The notes under the pieces: generated by a model
What the model saw: the letters and a program-made list of their open reading frames with translations, nothing else
Told to the model about the DNA's origin: nothing
Database searches by the model: none
NCBI RefSeq assembly: GCF_024298845.1
Contig: NZ_CP101156.1
Coordinates: forward strand, 1,674,001-1,738,000
DNA from: Natronosalvus amylolyticus
GTDB taxonomy: Archaea; Halobacteriota; Halobacteria; Halobacteriales; Natrialbaceae
Direction of reading: 5' to 3'
Length of the DNA stretch: 64,000 bases
Shown: positions 20,586-33,276 of the stretch, piece after piece
Position numbering within the stretch: position 1 is the first letter of the stretch
How the letters are laid out: every line of letters begins with the position of its first letter
Program-made: the position numbers and the translations under genes

Positions 20586-22772
20586 CTACAGGTAATCGAT
20601 CGCCGGCGGCAACTCGAGTTTCATGCCCTTGCGCTCACGAATCTCCATGATGGTTTCGCGCTGGAGCGAGTCGGACATGACCTCGAAGCCAGCGTTCTCG
20701 GTGTTCCAGGCGGCACGACCCTCGGTCGCACTGCGGATGTCACTCGAGAAGCCGATCATCTCTTCGACGGGCGCGATGCCTTCGACGACCATGAGGTCAC
20801 CCTCCTGGTACATGTCGTCGACGCGGCCACGTCGGCCCTGGATCTCGCCGGAGGCGGCACCCATGTGGTCGTTTGGCACGTCGATTCGGACGTCCTGCAT
20901 CGGCTCGAGCAGCTTGATGTGGCCGTCGATCAGCGAGCGGTGAACGGCTTCACGCGTCGCGGGGATAACCTGTGCCGGGCCACGGTGGATGGTGTCCTCG
21001 TGGAGTTTGGCGTCGTGCAGGCGGATGAGCGTCCCCTGAACGGGCTCGTTGGCGAGTGGGCCGTTGTCGAGGGCGTCTTCGAGCCCCTCGATGAACAGTT
21101 CCATCGTCTCGTTCAGGTGCTGGATACCTTTCGTGTCGTCGATGAGGATGTTCGTCCCGTGGATGTGCTCGACGTTCTGGGACGTGTCTTTGTCCATGCC
21201 GGCTTCTTGGAGCGCTTCACGGCGCTCGAGTTCGGGCATATCCATCGACGCCTCGCCGAGCTGGATCGTCTGGACGAGTTCGTCGCTAAGCGGGTGTGCC
21301 GAGATGTAAAAGCGGTTGTGACGGTTTGGCGAGATACCTTCGACCTCGTCACTCTCTCGCTGGACGGCCTCGCGGTAGACGACGATCGGCTCACCTGTGT
21401 TGACCGGAATCCCCTGGTTTGCCTCCATTCGCTGGGTGATGACTTCGAGGTGAAGTTCACCCTGTCCGGAGATCAGGTGTTCGCCGGTGTCTTCGTTGAT
21501 GTCGATCTGGATCGTCGGGTCCTCTTTCGAGAACTGCCGAAGCGCTTCGATGAGCTTTGGCAGGTCGTCCATCGTCTTCGCTTCGACGGACTTCGTGATG
21601 ACCGGCTCGGAGATGTGCTCGATGGACTCGAACGGCGTCATCTCGACGCTCGAGACAGTCGAACCAGCGATAGCATCGCGCAGGCCGGTGACGGCAGCGA
21701 TGTTTCCGGCTGGAACACGTTCGACTTCCTCGCGTTCGCCACCCATGTAGATACCGACGGACTGGACGCGGTTTTTCCCGGCCGTTCCGGAGACGTACAG
21801 TTCCTGCCCTTTCTCGAGGCTCCCCGAGAACACACGGCCGGAGGCAATTTCACCGGCGTGTGGGTCCATGGAGATGTCGGTGACCATCAAGACGACTTCG
21901 CCGTCTTCGTCGACGAGTCGCATCGAATCCGCGAGTTCGGTCTCGGAATCACCACGCCAGATACGTGGGATACGACGGGGCTGTGCGTTGACTGGATTCG
22001 GGAAGTGCTCACAGACCATGTCGAGCACGACGTCCGACAGGGGCGTCCGCTCGTGGAGTTCCTGGCGTTTGTCGGCCTGCTCGAGGTCGATAATATCGCC
22101 GAAGTCCATTCCGGTTCGCTGCATCGACGGCATCGAGACACCCCACTTGTACAGTGCGGACCCGAAGCCGACGGTACCATCTTCGACCGAAACCGTCCAG
22201 TCATCGACGTCGTCCATCTCCTCGGTCATGCCGCGGATGAGGTCGTTGACGTCTTTGATGACCTTCAGGAGGCGCTCTTGCATCTCCTGTGGCCCTTCCT
22301 GCAGTTCCGAGATGAGGCGGTCGACCTTGTTGATGAACAGTGCCGGTTTGACACCCTCACGGAGCGCCTGACGCAGCACCGTCTCCGTCTGGGGCATTGC
22401 ACCTTCGACGGCGTCGACGACCACCAGCGCACCGTCGACAGCGCGCATCGCCCGCGTCACGTCGCCACCGAAGTCGACGTGGCCTGGTGTGTCGATGAGG
22501 TTGATCAGGTGGTTCGTGTCGTCGTACTCGTGGGTCATCGAAACGTTTGCCGCGTCGATGGTAATCCCACGCTCTTGCTCGTCTTCTTCAGTGTCCATCG
22601 CGAGCTGTTGACCTGCCGTGTCGTCGGAGATCATACCCGCGCCCGCGAGGAGATTGTCGGAAAGCGTCGTTTTACCGTGGTCGACGTGAGCGGCGATGGC
22701 GATGTTCCGGATGTGCTCCGGGTTATCCATCAACCGTTCACATTCTTGAACGATCTTCTTACGTCGGCCCAT
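20586..22772 (-). CDS. aef2: Translation elongation factor aEF-2
   Basis: A 728-aa translocase GTPase. G1 is [11 protein letters not shown]3 is DTPGHVDF, G4 is NKVD. Domain IV carries the diphthamide histidine in the motif [10 protein letters not shown]. It moves tRNA-mRNA through the ribosome after peptide transfer. ATG at 22772 begins MGRRKK; a purine-rich GGTGG sits just upstream. In many haloarchaea this gene follows rpsL and rpsG; here an accessory cassette lies between. Confidence 0.98.
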
Positions 22773-22966
22773 ATATCCACCTGTACCGGTAGCGGGGTCA
22801 AAAGGGTGCTGTTTCGTGTTCGCCGAAATCACCCGCTGTGACCGTCTCACACACCGCATACTCTCTCTCGAGTGAATGGGTACACGAAAACCGAATCTCG
22901 AGAGGGGAAGGCACCCTCTAGACGGGCGTAAAAGCCATACCCTGCGAGACCTTGGTATCTCATCAC

Positions 22967-23800
22967 ATGGACATTCGTATACAGGGTCCCGGCCCCAGCG
23001 CACCGTTTCTTGGAGCCCGAGACCTGTTCGAAACCGAACGGGACCTCACCCTGCCGGTGTACGTCCACCTGCGTGATGACCCCGACGAACGCACCTGGGC
23101 AGGCCACTACGACGACAGACACGTCCTGAACATCTCGCGGCAGGCTGCCTCGTCTGCGATGGCTCGCGAACTCGCGTTACACGAGTTTTCGCACATGGCA
23201 CGCTACGAGGAATCTCACCCCTCGCACGTTCAACCCATCGAAGAGGCGCTGTACCTGGCACTGGCCGGCCACCGCGTCGAACGTCGCCGACTGACTCACT
23301 GTTACCAGATTGCCAATCACGCAAAGGACATCTACGCCGACGATATCACACTCGCCGTCGGTCCCGGCGAGAAACTACTCGCCTTCCTCGAGTCCTCGCT
23401 TGCAACGGCGGTTGCCGATCACGGATCGACAAACCCGGTTCGGGCCGGGAAAACGACCCGACTCACGCCAGCCGCCGATCCAAACATCACGGCCGTCAAC
23501 GCCGCGTTTGCCCTGGCACTCGCGGAACGACACGATCTGCTCGAGGCCGACCATCGACTGTACGATCTGGCTCGAATCGCCGCCATGGACGCACCCGCTG
23601 TCGACCTGGACGCCTTCGTTCGGCAATTCCGGGACCTCAGCCACGACCCCGACGCAAGTACCTACCGACAGACGCTCGTCGAGTTAACTCGAGCGTACGT
23701 CCTGGATCAACCGCCCGGTTCGACACCAAAAGCTGAGCCGAATGGCAGCCGTGAAAACCGTCGCGGTGCGTCACGGGGCCCCAATACTGGAGCTGATTAG
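22967..23800 (+). CDS. DUF5781-like protein with HEFSH motif
   Basis: A 277-aa protein. [16 protein letters not shown] (about residues 76-91) contains an HExxH zinc-protease-type motif followed by an acidic stretch. The rest is largely helical, with a disordered polar C-terminus. It matches the haloarchaeal DUF5781 family, usually encoded beside aEF-2, and no activity is established. It is transcribed divergently from aef2 with 194 bp between. ATG at 22967 was preferred to the TTG at 22952. Peptidase activity is inferred only from the motif. Confidence 0.78.
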
Positions 23801-23901: not shown

Positions 23902-24007
23902 GATAATCGTCGCACGTAATTCTCGCATCACCTTACCGTCTACTTTTTCTATATTTCTACTCGATTTAACTATTCCCCAATGTCGATGGTACTATACTTT
24001 CTATGTT

Positions 24008-24059
24008 TGATATATTTAAATAAATTCATTACGGGCTGGTACCATGTGCCATATGTACC
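24008..24059 (+). promoter_or_regulatory. Strong TATA box and inverted repeat before 42-aa gene
   Basis: TTGATATATTTAAATAAATT (24007-24026) is the most AT-rich promoter-like block nearby. TGGTAC (24037-24042) and GTACCA (24055-24060) form an inverted repeat around the expected transcription start and abut the ATG. Confidence 0.6.
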
Positions 24060-24188
24060 ATGACGGAACTTAGCGACTACCTGAAGAAGCACCCACGAAT
24101 GATCGGCGTCCTGTTCACGGCCATGCTGTTGCTGTCCCAGGCTGGGACAGTTGCTGCCGGGAACGGAAACGCATACATCGGCCCCTAA
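24060..24188 (+). CDS. 42-aa hydrophobic microprotein (DUF7503-like)
   Basis: A tiny gene. The product begins MTELSDYLKKHPRMIGVL, continues with a single hydrophobic segment (FTAMLLLSQAGTVAA, about residues 19-33) and ends GNGNAYIGP. It looks like a signal peptide or single transmembrane helix with almost no mature part. I recognise the pattern of very small haloarchaeal proteins (DUF7503-like: HPRMIGVLF, then LLLSQAG, then an ending in GP). A strong promoter precedes it. It converges with the CHAT gene 100 bp away. Function is unknown. Confidence 0.72.
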   Translation: MTELSDYLKKHPRMIGVLFTAMLLLSQAGTVAAGNGNAYIGP

Positions 24189-24287
24189 AGACTACGTCCA
24201 AAATCACTGGTGAATTGTTCGGAATCACCGATGTCGTCTCTCGACCGTCTCGTTACTGAAGACGCGTTTCGATTGTGGGCATAGCGA

Positions 24288-26429
24288 TCACACCCCTCCG
24301 TCGATCACGTCGTCCCCCCAGGAGAGTTCGCCATCGAACAATATCGGTATCTGTTCTAGCTCGAGAAACTCCGAAAGTTGGGCCTTCGTCGCTTCGAACG
24401 GGCCAACAACGTCAGGGCTCACAAAGTATGACCCAGTCGTATCCAGGTAAGGCATAAAGAGCACTCCTTTGCCCGAACTGGTGTGAGTATACATTTCCAG
24501 TTCGACGGTGAAGGCTCCGTTCGCTCGTTCTATCGTTGCCAGATTTGGAACTCCCGTTTCCGACTGTGCGATAGTGATGAGGCCGTCACCAACCAGTTGA
24601 TACTGTTGACCGATGAGGCTTCGCTCTCGGGCGATCTCGAGGGCGGCATACAGCGGGTAGCCGCGGTTGAGCAACCGAGCCAGTTCAGTGCCCACGCTAA
24701 TTGCACCACTATTGATGACGTCACCCAGCGTGACGACACCGCCAATACTTCCGCCTTCGACCAGATACAGTCCCTGATCGCGCGATTGGCACGCGTTGAG
24801 TAAAAACGCCTTGGCACCCACCGAATCTACCGTCGAGACGTCGAATATTCCATCCGAACACTGGAATCCCGATTCGTCGATGTGGCCGATGTAGTGGAAT
24901 AGGTCGCTCTCGCGGGTGAGCACCGCCTCGAGTTCGTCTCTCGTTAGATCGTAGTGTTCGGTGACGGTGAACGGTAACGACTCACGATCGCCGTAGATCC
25001 CGTTGACCGCGTCGAGTTCTTCGCGCATTTCGGAGTCGTTACAGACCACTTCGATCTCGATCGGGTCCGATCTCGGTTCCCGCCCGATACTGTTATAAAA
25101 CGCTGATACGGGTGTTGTGCTCTGGATATCGGGGCCATCTTGCCGTCGCCAAAATTGGCTAATCGTCGGTGGGAGATCCCCCGTGGATTCGTTCGTCGTT
25201 CCTTCGGAATGAGCCGTTGTCATCTCCGCATTTTCCACTTCCGATTCGCCCACTGTCGCCCCTGTTTTACTCTCGTCCGTCCCATCTTGACTCGAGCGAA
25301 CGCCACGACTGAACGAATCGCGTGTAAACGTATGAATCGCTTGTTGATACTGTGCCGTCGATGAACTCGAGCGATCGGTCTCGGTCGTGACAATCGCGAG
25401 GCTCTTGGCGATAAACGGCAAGAACTCGATCGACGATGGGGTCGGTTTCAACTCGGCTTCGAGTCGCCACTGGGGAAGTTCTGGTTCGAGCACCTCGTAC
25501 GGCGTTTCGAGGTACGTCTGCACCCGTTTGGCAGGCGACTGGTCGTACACCGTCGCTGGATCCCAGGATAGTTCGGGTTCGATAACCGATCGTGCATGCA
25601 AGGGAACGGGTGTCGTTCCCTCCGTTCGGACGATACAATCCAGGAAGAACACGTGTTTCAGCACGCGTTCGACCGTTTCCTCGAGATTCTCCGATTCCTC
25701 GAGAGGAAACGAAAACCCCGCTTCGGTCGTAATCGCTGGTTTGGCCCCTTCGACGACGGTCGCACCAAGATAGGACGCAAGCGGTGTCACGACAAAAACC
25801 GAAGCCAGGTCCGGTGGTACTGTTATACGAACGCCGGTTTCGGGGGGTGTGATTGTCTCAGGTACCGAGAGACACTCACCGAGTTCCAACGTTGGCGGAT
25901 GGCCACGAAGCGTCGGATACGACCGTTCTGCAGTCGTCGTCTTCAGTGCCGAGCCGAACATCGTCACTGCCTGCATGAGGTCTGTGGGATCCTCGGTCGT
26001 CGTAATCGTCCCTGCAGGGCGAGTGTGATAGGATCGAGCCCCGATCACCGCTTTCGTCGATTCCTCGAATCCAATGTGGGTCCGTTCGGGGTCAAAATAG
26101 AGTTGAATCGAACTGTCGACGTCGATATATATTTTGAACGGGTTGGTCAGGTCGATCGTGTAATGGTCGGCCTCGAGGAACGTTTTACCTGACGGACCGA
26201 TCCCCTCAACCATCGATCCGGTATCGTCTCGAATACAGGGCAAAGTGTTCGTTGGCAGCGTTATCATATCCGTCGTCACTGAGACGGCTGCGTCGACCGG
26301 GTACGGAATCGTATCGGATGGAACCGAGGTCGGCGCTACCGGATCGTGTGTGATGAGTTGACAGCGGTGACGTTCGATTCGATCGATAATCTCGAGGCCG
26401 TTCTCGACCGGTTCGAATGTTGGTTTCAT
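24288..26429 (-). CDS. CHAT-domain caspase-like protease
   Basis: A 713-aa protein. The C-terminal third (about residues 455-640) is a CHAT domain: catalytic His in FHYIGH (H516) and Cys in LLNACQS (C547), followed by GGVVTLGDVINSGAISVG and PLYAALEIARERSL as in family C80/CHAT peptidases. Residues 1-350 form a beta-rich region I do not recognise, and about 350-430 is a Ser/Thr/Glu-rich linker. No TPR repeats are seen, unlike many bacterial CHAT proteins. CHAT proteases elsewhere act in defence and regulated cell death. The DUF7504-like gene precedes it by 72 bp. Confidence 0.88.
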   Translation of the reverse strand: MKPTFEPVENGLEIIDRIERHRCQLITHDPVAPTSVPSDTIPYPVDAAVSVTTDMITLPTNTLPCIRDDTGSMVEGIGPSGKTFLEADHYTIDLTNPFKIYIDVDSSIQLYFDPERTHIGFEESTKAVIGARSYHTRPAGTITTTEDPTDLMQAVTMFGSALKTTTAERSYPTLRGHPPTLELGECLSVPETITPPETGVRITVPPDLASVFVVTPLASYLGATVVEGAKPAITTEAGFSFPLEESENLEETVERVLKHVFFLDCIVRTEGTTPVPLHARSVIEPELSWDPATVYDQSPAKRVQTYLETPYEVLEPELPQWRLEAELKPTPSSIEFLPFIAKSLAIVTTETDRSSSSTAQYQQAIHTFTRDSFSRGVRSSQDGTDESKTGATVGESEVENAEMTTAHSEGTTNESTGDLPPTISQFWRRQDGPDIQSTTPVSAFYNSIGREPRSDPIEIEVVCNDSEMREELDAVNGIYGDRESLPFTVTEHYDLTRDELEAVLTRESDLFHYIGHIDESGFQCSDGIFDVSTVDSVGAKAFLLNACQSRDQGLYLVEGGSIGGVVTLGDVINSGAISVGTELARLLNRGYPLYAALEIARERSLIGQQYQLVGDGLITIAQSETGVPNLATIERANGAFTVELEMYTHTSSGKGVLFMPYLDTTGSYFVSPDVVGPFEATKAQLSEFLELEQIPILFDGELSWGDDVIDGGV

Positions 26430-26501
26430 ATCTCGAGGATGTGGGGGCTTCAGCCGGGATGTGCTGTTGGTAGTCTGGTTGGCCCTGTCCGTACGAAGCA
26501 G

Positions 26502-27263
26502 CTACTCTCGAGGCATTGGGAGCCATCCCGAGCTATGAGTTCCGTTTGTGATTGTCCACCGTTCCTGACAGCCACCCCCTCGTTCTCGCAACTCGATGGT
26601 CGCGTCAAACAACGGAGTCAACACTGAGACGATCTTTGCATCCTCGTCTACTGGCAGGTGGATGTGTCCCATCCCGTTGACTGCTCGAGTGCGACCGTTG
26701 ATGAGGTGTAAAAACTGGAACACGGTCTCTCGCCCGTACGTCTCGAGAAACGGCAACAACGTGGTCATCCCGAGTCGTACTTCCCCCGGTGTGAGTGTGT
26801 CGGCGTCGTCTTCGAACCGTTCGATGGCTTCGGAGATTGCAATACCGACATCCGCGAGCGTTTCGGTCGTCACTGGGTCGGTGGCAGTTGTCGAATCCCG
26901 CTCGTCTGTACCTATCGACGGAGTAGCTGTCGTCGATACCGACTGATTCCGCTCATCCGTGATCGCCGCTGTTTGGGTACAACGAGCCTGGTTTGCATAT
27001 TCGATGTGTACGAACGATTCCGGTGGGGACTGATCCGGATACAGACCCGTATCGACGTCGTCGGACGCCGTCGACACCACGATTCGTCGGCGTGGAGCCA
27101 TCGATGACTGGCCAAGCAATCGCTGCGTGAGGCGGTTTCGATAGGTCGAGTCGACTGAGCCAACGACTAAGACCGAAGCCCCCTGCTGTTTTAATTCCGT
27201 TAATTTGGCTGCGAAGGCGCTTTCATCGTAATCGCGTCTGCAATCGTTTCCGGATTGAATCAC
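26502..27263 (-). CDS. DUF7504-like RecA-fold-related protein
   Basis: A 253-aa protein. The N-terminal SVLVVGSVDSTYRNRLTQRLLG resembles the first strand and helix of the haloarchaeal RecA/KaiC-derived families but has no Walker A glycine-lysine motif. A Ser/Thr-rich linker (about residues 90-130) separates an alpha/beta C-terminal half (VGIAISEAIERFE, ETVFQFLHLINGR, IHLPVDEDA). Probably a non-hydrolysing sensor or scaffold; that is inference. It is the first gene of a two-gene operon with the CHAT protease, with a minus-strand TATA-like ACTTAACC near 27291-27299. Confidence 0.75.
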   Translation of the reverse strand: MIQSGNDCRRDYDESAFAAKLTELKQQGASVLVVGSVDSTYRNRLTQRLLGQSSMAPRRRIVVSTASDDVDTGLYPDQSPPESFVHIEYANQARCTQTAAITDERNQSVSTTATPSIGTDERDSTTATDPVTTETLADVGIAISEAIERFEDDADTLTPGEVRLGMTTLLPFLETYGRETVFQFLHLINGRTRAVNGMGHIHLPVDEDAKIVSVLTPLFDATIELRERGGGCQERWTITNGTHSSGWLPMPRE

Positions 27264-27450
27264 GTAACTATCACCTGATACTGCCTATCGAAGGTTAAGT
27301 TTTCTGGGTCCGAAATTCGCGCTGCGTAACATCTCGAAGTCCCACTCGAGGACGTCTCTTGCCCCCTCACACTCATCGGTTGCCGCCTGAGATATACCGA
27401 GGATACACGCACTGTTCTCGAGGCGAGCGTAGCCACTCCCGATTGTGACG

Positions 27451-27460
27451 GAAAACAAAA
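27451..27460 (-). terminator. T-rich run after rpsG
   Basis: On the minus strand TTTTGTTTTC begins 13 nt after the rpsG stop codon, a plausible end of the rpo-rps transcript before the CHAT cassette. Confidence 0.5.
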
Positions 27461-27473
27461 TCTCGAGGCGCGG

Positions 27474-28082
27474 TTATCTGGCTGCGGCCGCGACGCGCTC
27501 TTTTTCCTCTTTCTGGCTGATCGAGTACGTCTGGACGTCGTAGTCAGCAGCACCGATAAGCTGACGTGCCAGCGCTTCCGACGCCGAGGTCGAGGTTTTG
27601 AACGAGGCGCTGTGAGCACCTTCGGCGATGAACTTCAGGGCCTGGTCGACACGACGCTGTGGGGCGACGTCGACAGCCTTGGGAACCGAAATTCCACCGT
27701 ATTTCAGGCGGACGGTCTCCTCACGTGGTGCTGAGTTCTCGACGGCCGTCACGAGCACCTGCACGGGGTTTTCTTCCGTGCGGTCGTGAACGATATCGAA
27801 GGCTTCGCGGACGATTTTCAGCGTCTGCTGTTTTTTGCCCGTGTTCTCTTCAGTCTGCATCAGACGGTTGGTCAGGCGCTCGACGACCGAAATTTCGGAC
27901 TTTTTGAACTGTTTGCTCGCGTGGCGACCCGCCGTGTGAGCGATCGGCGTCACTGAGAGGTAGCGCTCGGTCGAGGGGTCGTTGTAGACGATATCGGAGA
28001 CGTCCCACGTGCCGAAGAGTTTGGCCGAAAGGTCGCCGCCACCGGCCGGTGCTTCGGGTTCTGGTTGTTCTTGCTCGCTCAT
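27474..28082 (-). CDS. rpsG: 30S ribosomal protein S7
   Basis: A 202-aa archaeal uS7 with a longer acidic N-terminus than bacterial S7. HTAGRHASKQFKKSE, then LTNRLMQTEENTGKKQ and the C-terminal YDVQTYSISQKEEKERVA are typical. It binds the 3' major domain of 16S rRNA and nucleates head assembly. ATG at 28082 lies 2 bp after the rpsL stop codon, so both are co-transcribed. Confidence 0.97.
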   Translation of the reverse strand: MSEQEQPEPEAPAGGGDLSAKLFGTWDVSDIVYNDPSTERYLSVTPIAHTAGRHASKQFKKSEISVVERLTNRLMQTEENTGKKQQTLKIVREAFDIVHDRTEENPVQVLVTAVENSAPREETVRLKYGGISVPKAVDVAPQRRVDQALKFIAEGAHSASFKTSTSASEALARQLIGAADYDVQTYSISQKEEKERVAAAAR

Positions 28083-28083
28083 G

Positions 28084-28512
28084 TTATCGCACCGGTTTCT
28101 CCGCGTTTCCGCGAACCAGTTCGAGGAGCGCGACACCGTTGACCTTGTCGACCTTGTAGTTGACACCCGAAAGGTCACCCATTGCACGACCCTTTGCCCC
28201 ACCGATACCGGCGATGGTGACTTCGTCGTGTTCGTCGATGAAGCTGATCGCACCGTCACCGGGGCAGAACGCGGTGACCTGCTTGCCGTTTTTGATCAGC
28301 TGGACTCGGACACACTTTCGAATTGCCGAGTTGGGCTGTTTCGCTTCGATACCGACCTTTTCGAGAACGATACCGCGAGCCTGTGGGGCACCCTCGAGCG
28401 GGTCCGACTTCTCACGCAGGCCGCGTGCTCGGCGCGCGTAGTCCGAGTCGGACCACCGCTGTTTCTGGCGGTCCTTCTGGAGCTTCCGCGCGGCGTATTT
28501 GCCGTTTGCCAT
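28084..28512 (-). CDS. rpsL: 30S ribosomal protein S12
   Basis: A 142-aa archaeal uS12 (S23e type). [19 protein letters not shown] is the decoding-site loop, where the bacterial counterpart carries streptomycin-resistance positions. [21 protein letters not shown] closes the protein. It contacts the codon-anticodon helix. Start ATG at 28512 ([10 protein letters not shown]). An AT-rich CTTAAG box about 26 bp upstream suggests an additional leaderless promoter inside the operon. Confidence 0.97.
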
Positions 28513-28670
28513 GGACGTGGCTATCCGACGGAGACACTTAAGCATCCCCTTTTGAGCCGGGAGAAACGCCTCGAGAGCGCTTTATCGATAGCTCTCGAGG
28601 AATCTCAGCGCGTTTCGTCGGGAACGGCGGTCGCTCGAGGCGTGACAGACCAGCCAGTAGCAGATGCTGG

Positions 28671-29090
28671 TCACACCAACTGCACGTCGTCGATTCCGAA
28701 GTGCCGGTTGGCGAGCGCTCGAGCGTCTTCGATTCGCTCGCCACCCGTCCCAATAGCCACGCCGCGGTCACCCGAGGCGACCTCGACGTAGGCGACCGTG
28801 TCCTCGTTCTCGCTGATCGTGACGTTGAACACGGCCGCTGGGGCGAGGGCGTTCGCCACGAACGTCTCGGGTTCGCTCGCACCCTCGACCAGTCTGACCG
28901 AGCGGCCCACCGCTTTTTCGAATCGTTTGACGTGCTGGCCGCGTGCGCCGATCGCCTCCCCGAGCGAATCGGGAGGCACGACGATCACCAGTCGCTCGTC
29001 GGTGACCAGACAGTCCCGTCCCGAGACACCCGAGACCTCCTCGAACCGGGCGATGAACTGCCGGGCGTCGTCCTCGAGTGTAATAGTCAT
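28671..29090 (-). CDS. nusA: Archaeal NusA-like transcription factor
   Basis: A 139-aa protein with two KH domains and no N-terminal RNAP-binding or S1 domain, as in all archaeal NusA. The RNA-binding GxxG loops are in AIGARGQHVKRFE and AIGTGGERIEDA. It probably aids termination or pausing. It lies 33 bp downstream of rpoA2 and 158 bp upstream of rpsL, the conserved archaeal order. Confidence 0.94.
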   Translation of the reverse strand: MTITLEDDARQFIARFEEVSGVSGRDCLVTDERLVIVVPPDSLGEAIGARGQHVKRFEKAVGRSVRLVEGASEPETFVANALAPAAVFNVTISENEDTVAYVEVASGDRGVAIGTGGERIEDARALANRHFGIDDVQLV

Positions 29091-29123
29091 ACGAAAAGTA
29101 CTCGTGAAAGTCGGCGACCGCGT

Positions 29124-30323
29124 TCAGTCCGCTTTGTTCGGCGACGACCCCATCCGGAGGTCGACGTCACCGGTACCGAGTTTGATCGGCTTCCCGACGA
29201 TAACGTTCTCCGTGACGCCGTCGAGTTCGTCGACCTCGCCGTGGATGGCCGCGTTGAGCAGGTGGTTGACCGTGACTTCGAACGCCGCACGGGCGAGAAC
29301 GGAGTCTTTCGCCCCGGAGATTCCGTGTCGACCGATCGACTCGATGGTCCCCTCGTTGGTCATCATGTCGGCGACCAACATCAGGTGGCGAACGTTCACG
29401 TCGTCAAGCCCCTGTTCGGCCAGCGTGTTGTTCGTCTCCTCGATGATGGCCTCTCGAGCGGCCTCGATGCCGAGGTTACGGTGAATCTCGTGAATGTTGT
29501 TACAGGTCGTCCGCGAGTCGTCGACACCCTCGATAGAGAGGACATCGCCGAATGCCGATCCCTCGGTGTAGAGGATGAACTCCTCGGTCCCGTCGTCCAT
29601 CTCTTCGCGCCGGATGACGACGCGGGAGATATCCTCGATACCTTTGAACGTGATATCTCGAAGTTCCTCGACCAGTTGCAGGAGGTCGCGGTAAGACGGC
29701 TCTTCCGGACCAAACTCGACGGTCGTTCCCTGTTGAACGGTTTTCACTCCCAGGTTGTCCTCGATGATGTCGGCCACTGCTTCGGCCGTGATCATCCGCT
29801 CGTCGAGGGTGTCCTGGTTGAGCGAAATCTGGACGCGCATGTCGGCGACGTTCGTCGACACGTCACCCAGCGCGAGGATCTTCGTTGCCTCGATCTTCCA
29901 GACGACCTCGTGGGCTTTCTCCCGTTCGGTGGCGTACTCGCCCTCGAGGTACACCGTCATCATCGGCGTGTCGGGCGTCTTTCGAGCGTCGACCAGTTCG
30001 ATCAGCCGCGGAAGCCCCTGCGTGACGTCGATCTCTGCGACACCCGCGTAGTGGAACGTGTTCATCGTCAACTGCGTTCCGGGCTCACCGATAGACTGTG
30101 CGCTGACAGTGCCGACCGGGTCGAGCGGATCGACGCGCGTGTCGATGTACTGCGTTTCGACGGCCGAAACGACGTCCTGCGCCTGTTCAGGGGTCACGTC
30201 GCCGCGTGCCTCGAGCGACTCGTAGACGCGGTCTTTGAGTCGACGGGGCAGTTCGCTGTCTTCAACGATGACGATAACGTCGTCGCTGACGTCGTAGGCC
30301 TGCGTGAACACTGACTCAGTCAT
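29124..30323 (-). CDS. rpoA2: DNA-directed RNA polymerase subunit A''
   Basis: A 399-aa C-terminal half of the largest RNAP subunit, split from A' as in archaea. [22 protein letters not shown] is the trigger loop, with the conserved start of the cleft-side jaw following. The start overlaps the end of rpoA1 by 8 bp, consistent with coupled synthesis of the two halves. The C-terminal [10 protein letters not shown] ending is as in other haloarchaea. Confidence 0.98.
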
Positions 30324-33276
30324 CGGAGGTCACCTCCTCGGTCCCGACACGTCGACTATCGGCATGCTCCGAGAGGTTCGTCTCGACTCGTTTGCCCTCG
30401 AGGAACTCTCGGCGTTCGCCCTCGGAGTCGAACTCCTCGTCGAGGACCCGATTTGTGATGCCTTCGACGTCGATATCGTGGTCCTCACCGGAGCCGACGA
30501 GCACCGGCGAGGTACCGTCTTCACCGAACTCGAACTGGACGATGGTGTCGCTCGTGTCTCGGACCGTCCCGTCGTACTGGGCCTCGAGTTCCGAGAGGGC
30601 GTTGATCAGCCGGCGCTGGAGGTAGCCCGATTTCGACGTTCGGACTGCCGTGTCGACCAGCCCTTCGCGGCCACCCATCGCGTGGAAGAAGAACTCACGC
30701 GGGCCGAGTCCGACGGTGTAGGAACTCTCGACGAACCCGTGTGCTTCCGCCGAAAGATCGTTTTTCTGGTAGTGGCTGAGCGTTCGATCTTCGTATCCGC
30801 GGTTGATTCGCTCGCCCCGAACTGCCTGCTGGCCGACACAGCCAGCCATCTGAGTCAGGTTGAGCATCGAACCACGCGCCCCGGAGTTCGCCATGACGAC
30901 TGCCGGATTGTCCTCGGTGAAGTGTTCCTCGGCAATAGTACCAGCATTGTCACGCGCACGCGAGAGCGTCTGCATGATCTTCATCTCGAGGGTTTCGTCG
31001 ATGGTCCGACCTGGCAGACTCTCGAGTTCCCCGCGTTCGTACGCCTCGATCAACTCTCCGACGCGGTCGTAGGCGTCTTCGATGGTCTCGTCGATGCGAG
31101 CCTCGGCTTCGTCCGGGATCGTTTCGTCGTCGATCCCGATCGAGAACCCGAAGTGCATGATCGCCCGCATCGCGAGCGTCGATAGCTCGTTGATGAACAC
31201 CCGCGAGCGGGTGTTGCCGTACTGTTTCGTGATGGCGTCGACGATTTCGCCGCCGAACTCGCCCACTTCGTCTTCGGCAATGGTCCCTTCGACGAGTTGG
31301 CCGTCTTCGATGATCACGTCGTCCCCGATAGTGCCCGTGAACTCGAGGTTCATGTCGTCTGGCAGGAGTTCGGAGAAGACGTCCCGGCCGGTCCAGAACG
31401 GCTCACCCTCGTCGTCGATGCCACTCGGTTCGGGCAGTTCGTCGATCCGGGTCGCTCGCAGCAAGTCGAGCGCCTGGGTCTCGTTGAATCGTGGGTTGTC
31501 CTTCGTGAGCAGGTACGTTCCGGAGATGTGGTCCTGAATCGCGCCGATGATGTTCGCGCCGAAACGCGGACTCAAGATCTGTTCTTGCACGCGCATGAGA
31601 ACACGCGCTTCCGCGCGGGCTTCCTCGTTCTGGAGGGCGTGCATGTTCATCTCGTCGCCGTCGAAGTCGGCGTTGTACGGCGGACAGACGACGGTGTTGA
31701 GTCGGAACGTCTTGTACGGCATGACCACGACCTCGTGGGCCATGATCGACATCCGGTGCAGCGACGGTTGTCGGTTGAAGATAACGATGTCCCCGTCGAT
31801 CAGGTGCCGGTTGACTTCCCACCCGGGACCGATAGTCTGGGCTTCGTCCAGTTCGGTTTCCTCGGACATCCCAGCCAATGCCTTGCAGTTTTTCTCGGTC
31901 ACTTTGAGTCGTCGACCGTCAGGCCGTCGAACGTAGTTCGCACCGGGGTGGGAGTTCGGCCCGTTGGCGACGTACTGTTTGGCCTGCTCGAGGTTGCGTT
32001 CGGTGACGAGCATGGTCTGGGTCATCTCGGTCGCGACGCGATCAGGGACACCGACCTCGTTGAGCGAGAGCGTCGGGTCCGGGGAGATGACAGTTCGGGC
32101 CGAGAAGTTGACACGCTTTCCGGACAGCGAGCCACGGAATCGCCCCTCCTTGCCTTTGAGCCGCTGGGAGAGCGTTTTGAGCGGCCGTCCCGAACGGTGT
32201 CGGGCCGGTGGCGTTCCCGAGATTTCGTTGTCCATGAACGTTGTGACGTGGTACTGGAGGAGTTCCCACAGGTCCTCGATAATCAGCTGTGGCGCACCCG
32301 CCTCACGGTTCTCCATGAACCGTTGGTTGATGCGGATGATGTCCACGAGTTTGTGCGTGAGGTCGTCCTCACTGCGCTGGCCGTTGTCGAGCGTAATCGA
32401 TGGCCGTGTCGTCACGGGTGGAACCGGCAACACGGTCAGGATCATCCACTCCGGACGCGAACGCTCGGAGTCGATGCCGAGCACTTCGATATCCTCGTCC
32501 GGAATCGCTTCGAACCAGTCACGAATGTCCGAAGGCATCAGTTTGTTCGTGTCCTCCTCGGTGAGGTCGATGTCGAGTGCTTTCTCGATGGCCTTCCGCT
32601 GACTTTCGCGGGGGCGGAACGACCCAGAGAGGATTTCGTTGATGCGTGTCAGTTCGATATCCGTCTTCTCGGCCAGTTCGTCCGGCGTCGTCCGGTCGAT
32701 TCCTTCCTCCTCGTTGCCCTGCATCGCGCCCGCGATGCGCTGGGAGTACTCGCTCGTGAGGACCTGCTGAACCTCGTAGTAGGTCGTCGGTTTCTCGTGT
32801 TCGATGTCGTACTGGATCTCGCCACAGTGGGGACACCGGTCTTTCTTTCGCGCCTGTCGGATGGCCGCTTTCAACACGTCCTGTGGGTCACGACCGAGAC
32901 GTCGTGCCTCGGACAGTCGCTCGCGGAACTCGGCTTTTTCGTCTTCGGTGAGCAGCAAGCGCGAACACTCACGGCAGGTACCACGCAGCAATCGTCGGAT
33001 GAGTTTAGTAAAGCCGACGTGAATCACCGGCGCGGCGAGTTCGATGTGCCCGAAGTGGCCCGGACACGACCCCGAGTGCTGTCCACAGGTCGGACACTCG
33101 AGACCGGGGTCGATGACGCCCAGTCGCGTGTCCATCAGCCCCATGTCGATGGGGAAACCGTCGTCGTCGTAGGTGTCCGCCGTAATGACCTTCGTGACCG
33201 AGAGGTCCCGATACGTCTCCGGGTCCATCAGCCCGAACTGAATCTCGTCGAGTTCTTTTGGTGTTTGTATTGACAT
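30316..33276 (-). CDS. rpoA1: DNA-directed RNA polymerase subunit A'
   Basis: A 986-aa N-terminal part of the largest subunit. The absolutely conserved [10 protein letters not shown] holds the catalytic Mg2+. N-terminal zinc sites are visible in [17 protein letters not shown] and CRECSRLL, and again in [10 protein letters not shown]. The bridge helix region lies near the C-terminus ([19 protein letters not shown]). Archaeal members are about 870-1000 aa long, so this is complete. It begins 1 bp after rpoB1. Confidence 0.98.

Follow-up and report, generated by a model that had tools for sequence, protein, structure and literature searches.

Bacteria are known to pair CHAT proteases with a dedicated protein partner, as with Csx29-Csx30 (PMC10028731). 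Archaeal genomes are said to lack clear homologues of caspase-like protease genes (PMC3615174). In Haloferax volcanii, caspase-like proteolytic activity was reported without a known gene; this activity prefers Asp at P1 (LEVD, VEID, IETD) and leaves ARR-AMC uncut (PMC3615174).

Here we analysed a locus of Natronosalvus amylolyticus in which the gene of a predicted CHAT-fold protease faces that of a 42-aa peptide. It lies in a stretch of 64,000 nucleotides (NZ_CP101156.1, positions 1,674,001 to 1,738,000), called the window below. The three genes were confirmed at 24060-27263, where the first-pass annotation had placed them. The features, in window positions, are as follows.

23916..27353, no strand assigned: whole cassette with promoters, inverted in place by comparison with Natronosalvus hydrolyticus (L047) and other relatives
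24015..24059, plus strand: peptide promoter, an AT-rich BRE/TATA-like stretch followed by the inverted-repeat-like GGTAC-N12-GTACC abutting the ATG (upstream-region survey)
24060..24188, plus strand: DUF7503 micropeptide, 42 aa, MTELSDYLKKHPRMIGVLFTAMLLLSQAGTVAAGNGNAYIGP (Pfam PF24335, E 1.2e-23)
24288..26429, minus strand: predicted CHAT-fold cysteine protease, 713 aa, convergent with the peptide gene at a gap of about 100 bp (AlphaFold, Foldseek, homologue loci)
24555..25061, minus strand: CHAT domain proper, residues about 457-625 (secondary-structure order; conserved HYIGH and LNAC motifs)
24789..24791, minus strand: predicted catalytic Cys547, kept in 65 of 66 homologues (Arg in the exception, L041)
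24882..24884, minus strand: predicted catalytic His516, kept in 65 of 66 homologues (Asn in the exception, L041)
26502..27263, minus strand: DUF7504 protein, 253 aa, KaiC/RecA fold, on the same strand as the CHAT gene and 72 bp upstream of it (PF24336, E 2.2e-48)

Fold and conservation of the three proteins

The 713-aa protein gave no significant match in Pfam, NCBIfam, PADLOC, or PDB sequence searches, so its assignment needed fold comparison; PDB sequence profiles yielded nothing useful for this protein or for the DUF7504 protein. An AlphaFold model built from 58 homologues (pLDDT 85, pTM 0.85) was searched with Foldseek, and its C-terminal part matched SAVED-CHAT, separase, and gingipain R (RgpB) with E values of 1.9e-6 to 2.3e-5 and probability 1.00. 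These matches confirm the CHAT assignment made in the first-pass annotation, and place the protein in clan CD with a caspase-haemoglobinase fold. In the model, His516 follows a strand at residues 508-514 and Cys547 a strand at 539-545, that is, His and Cys follow successive strands. The catalytic pair, described earlier as intact, was found at both positions and has not been lost in the homologues. As judged from the model, the 713-aa protein is a CHAT-fold protease with an intact His/Cys pair, and proteolytic activity is predicted.

The N-terminal half (about 345 residues) carried the conserved motif YPTLRGHPP and had no convincing or close solved relative in the fold comparison. An acidic residue was found at position 570 in 58 of 66 CHAT homologues; this residue, assigned by eye on the sequence, may be the S1 residue that receives a basic P1. 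The sole CHAT without both catalytic residues was a divergent paralogue in the source genome (L041:4949-7120; C1, about 3032-3034 kb), in which they were replaced by Asn and Arg and beside which there was no peptide. It is apparently an inactive family member. Two plasmid records label members as "caspase family" or "CHAT domain-containing protein", so the protease itself had already been noticed by automatic annotation.

The 253-aa protein scored 165.5 bits against DUF7504 (PF24336; curated cut-off 27), and its AlphaFold model (pLDDT 83) matched the KaiC CI domain best in Foldseek (E 4e-7). The RecA-like protein lacking a Walker A lysine, as first described, was thus recovered as a KaiC/RecA fold with a replaced P-loop (VVGSVDSTYRNRL in the window protein). 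GK[ST], with its Walker A lysine, was absent from the window protein and from the aligned cassette homologues listed, which sets them apart from KaiC/RecA ATPases.

The peptide scored 82.9 bits against DUF7503 (PF24335; curated cut-off 27), and its conservation was computed on 140 distinct relatives. Pro12 was present in all 140, Arg or Lys at position 13 in 139, Gln27 in 137, and the C-terminal Gly-Pro in 118, while Gly16, Leu18, Phe19, Gln27, and Gly29 were nearly invariant. In all 140, position 33 was Ala or Gly, and position 31 was Val or a small residue. The hydrophobic stretch was strongly conserved (LF, LLLSQAG), and tail residues 34-40 were variable (0.8-2.0 bits), in contrast to the fixed terminal Gly-Pro. 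Codons for Gly and Pro as well as the stop codon varied synonymously, with all synonymous codons in use, and dN/dS was 0.12-0.21 in four lineages. This result indicated that purifying selection acts on the peptide as a protein.

Over 138 regions upstream of peptide genes, the AT fraction reached 0.91 at -35, and TTTAWW at -50..-28 was present in 69 of them against 20 expected by shuffling. The TATA/BRE-like element about 35 bp before the ATG indicated that the peptide gene has its own promoter. Inverted-repeat-like sequences were seen between the TATA element and the ATG: GGTAC-N12-GTACC at 24038-24059 of the window, where a 21-mer of this promoter occurs only once, and those ahead of the peptide in L060, L063, and L068, with CCAAYGG...CCATTGG as the form in the glp lineage. 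These lineage-specific repeats are possible operators. A universal operator was rejected, because only the TATA/BRE-like element is general.

Pairing and inheritance of peptide and protease genes

The peptide gene was convergent (tail-to-tail) with the CHAT gene in 57 of 58 loci, an arrangement that is not due to chance. The 58th locus (L066) had the same arrangement with the CHAT reading frame broken in two, so that automatic pairing picked a tandem copy instead. When counted separately in 61 genomes, 60 of 63 peptide copies were convergent with CHAT within 500 bp; two of the other three were at contig ends, and one lay 4.5 kb apart, with phosphoglycerate-dehydrogenase-like and CAAX-protease genes in the interval. 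In the named-genome set, the peptide was present at 76 of 80 loci and convergent with CHAT at 75 of these 76. In the 61-genome set, CHAT accompanied the peptide in all 50 genomes that had it and was missing from 7 of the 11 that did not. Wherever the peptide occurs, the protease is practically always present, which bears out the pairing suggested for the window.

Over 148 pairs, the median gap between the two stops was 4.5 bp, and 88 of the pairs had a gap of 10 bp or less; gaps of 50-127 bp were also common, and in L059 an IS605-type transposase gene lay between peptide and CHAT. Peptide distances correlated with CHAT distances in a Mantel test (r 0.39; the null reached at most 0.10). Among 31 paralogue cases, there were 25 in which the own peptide best matched the peptide of the nearest foreign CHAT. 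A near-obligate, convergent, and co-diverging pair argues for a functional link between peptide and protease, although a locus inherited as a whole can also produce such gene order and distance correlation without contact.

CHAT often occurred without the peptide (48 of 108 strong matches in the 61 genomes), which shows that some CHATs can do without it. A loose motif search of the downstream opposite strand found no diverged peptide behind these genes. In a tree of 199 CHAT sequences (FastTree), peptide-less CHATs were mostly one basal group with scattered losses, with 10 changes of state in all.

Among the 148 peptide-associated CHATs, 77 (about half) adjoined DUF7504. The three-gene cassette initially described was therefore upheld for its core, in that the constant pair is peptide and CHAT, but not for DUF7504, which is optional and was rejected as an essential part.

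An AAA_16/Cdc6-like ATPase gene beside CHAT, between AglB and glpABC, replaced DUF7504 in one Natrialbaceae lineage (L038, L052, L056, L057, L060, L061, L063, L072, L088, and others); the source genome's own copy of this type (L038) had no peptide. DUF7504 had been proposed as the sensor, and an obligatory role of this kind is weakened by its being optional and replaced in one lineage. On the peptide side, a codirectional HalX-family gene was located just upstream in 35 of 150 loci, mostly of Haloferacaceae and Natrialbaceae (for example L142:5412-6002 and L095:7204-7785). Its receiver domain was full in Haloferax and apparently degenerate in Natrialbaceae.

A second, tandem CHAT gene was found across the peptide in L058, L066, L071, L076, L095, L099-L105, L110, L111, L114, L117, and L118; several Natrialbaceae (Natronorubrum, Natronococcus, Haloterrigena) had this arrangement. 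These second genes formed their own group in the CHAT tree.

Of 149 Halobacteriales genomes, 129 carried DUF7503. A draw of 295 genomes across the phylum gave 44 positives, every one of them Halobacteriales, and no genome sampled outside this order had the peptide. The CHAT family was present in Haloferax species, and DUF7503 in H. volcanii. The pair was found in the contexts rps7/EF-2, AglB/glp (glpABC), aminotransferase/TrmB in Haloferax, and plasmids. When compared with L047 by blastn, positions 20592-23800 and 27435-31000 of the window matched on the plus strand and 23916-27353 on the minus strand; the inverted segment was the cassette only, between DUF5781/EF-2 and rps7. No inverted repeats that could explain the inversion were seen at its borders. 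The inversion exactly at the cassette borders shows that the three genes move as one block. No viral contig carried the protease, and a viral origin was rejected.

Possible functions of the pair

These results point to an unstudied protease-and-partner system in almost every haloarchaeon examined. The hypothesis that the peptide may be a substrate or membrane effector came with the first-pass annotation. We propose, with a probability of roughly 0.45, that the pair is a membrane-linked regulated-proteolysis module in which DUF7503 would be the dedicated ligand of CHAT, most likely its substrate. The two-gene core would carry out regulated proteolysis at the cytoplasmic membrane. DUF7503 would have a single hydrophobic segment and a charged N-terminus, the latter probably cytosolic, and would be bound by a cytosolic CHAT protease. 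At the border of the membrane, P1 would be taken by the basic residue of the (H/N)-P-(R/K) motif, which is near-invariant. Separase and gingipain R, the closest structural relatives, cleave after Arg, and this specificity, together with the conserved acidic residue at 570, is why we expect a basic P1. The swappable partner on the CHAT side, either the KaiC-like pseudo-ATPase DUF7504 or the Cdc6-like AAA ATPase, would set when the protease acts, as would the HalX regulator beside the peptide in some lineages. The cut would free or inactivate the peptide and thereby change the membrane or stress state, possibly leading to cell death. In line with a ligand, the core of DUF7503 was more conserved in the 140 sequences than export alone would need.

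The main alternative, which we regard as unlikely but the best of the rivals, is that the peptide is the precursor of a secreted signal. Residues 1-33 would be a Sec signal peptide cut by signal peptidase after Ala33, the tail of 7-10 residues ending in Gly-Pro would be released as a pheromone or bacteriocin-like peptide, and CHAT would process this precursor, the signal peptide that is left, or the response. The residues at positions 31 and 33 obey the -1/-3 rule in all 140 sequences, and fit release of the tail by signal peptidase at least as well as the ligand model; the variable tail before a Gly-Pro that is fixed through all synonymous codons also suits a secreted product. Such strong conservation of the hydrophobic stretch is, however, rare for signal peptides, and no transporter or receptor gene recurred beside the pair among the neighbours scanned.

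A toxin-antidote pair seems distinctly less probable. The peptide would be a small toxin that depolarises the membrane, controlled by the convergent CHAT gene through 3' antisense transcription, degradation, or both. Type I toxins are small, hydrophobic peptides, which the peptide resembles in size and hydrophobicity; it has its own promoter, and the genes often abut or overlap at their stops, so that read-through transcripts would be antisense. The common gaps of 50-127 bp do not fit this arrangement, type I toxins do not typically show such strong conservation of particular residues and of the C-terminus, and the size and conservation of CHAT go well beyond what an antisense role requires.

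Still more doubtful is the immune role put forward in the first-pass annotation, namely an effector of anti-viral defence or abortive infection, of the CHAT-gasdermin or Craspase kind. CHAT proteases do serve in bacterial immunity loci (PMC10028731), and plasmid copies, tandem duplication of CHAT, and exchange of partners are features often found in conflict systems. The cassette was, however, near-universal, largely vertical, and placed beside housekeeping genes (rps7, EF-2, AglB, glpABC); PADLOC matched none of the three proteins and gave only isolated hits among 56 neighbour representatives, and neither a viral copy nor a gasdermin, CRISPR, or SAVED partner was seen. Improbable above all is an executioner module, in which a nucleotide-fold partner would release a class-wide haloarchaeal CHAT, cutting of the dedicated membrane micropeptide would start a regulated stress or death response, and at least part of the caspase-like activity of Haloferax would be explained.

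Comparison with described systems

A near-obligate convergent link between DUF7503 and CHAT was not found in the open-access literature searched, nor was any paper on DUF7504, on haloarchaeal CHAT proteins, or on "CHAT domain" together with Haloferax volcanii. In Pfam, the peptide and the upstream protein are by score members of DUF7503 and DUF7504, both described only as families of unknown function.

The locus resembles Craspase (Csx29-Csx30) and CHAT-gasdermin in that a CHAT His-Cys protease is encoded beside a dedicated non-enzymatic partner. It differs in that the partner is a convergently encoded 42-aa hydrophobic peptide, and in that the haloarchaeal cassette has no Cas7-11, TPR, or gasdermin and does not lie in defence islands. 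The TPR-CHAT, Cas7-11, and Csx30 that define type III-E Craspase gave no PADLOC match and were absent among the neighbours scanned, where there was also no gasdermin match (in one survey, among the 25 commonest families). PADLOC on the proteins and neighbours assigned the cassette to no known anti-phage system or defence island, its flanks being rps7/EF-2 and AglB/glp.

The C-terminal domain was closest in fold to SAVED-CHAT (PDB 8tl0; E 1.9e-6) and separase (5fby; E 2.8e-6), but only about 200 of the 713 residues align, with 15-18% identity, and no SAVED or TPR domain was seen here. Similarly, DUF7504 shares its fold with the KaiC CI domain and with BcsE, which was among its best matches, but has neither the P-loop lysine nor the second KaiC domain, and identity is about 13%.

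As for the caspase-like activity of H. volcanii, the haloarchaeal CHAT family is only a possible candidate, because the Arg specificity expected from its CHAT-fold relatives mismatches the Asp preference reported there. Most haloarchaeal genomes contain a caspase-fold protease family with an intact predicted catalytic pair, tied to one tiny peptide; among them are those of Haloferax, a genetically tractable genus. Both the orphan activity of Haloferax and a possible protease pathway with a single peptide thereby become testable.
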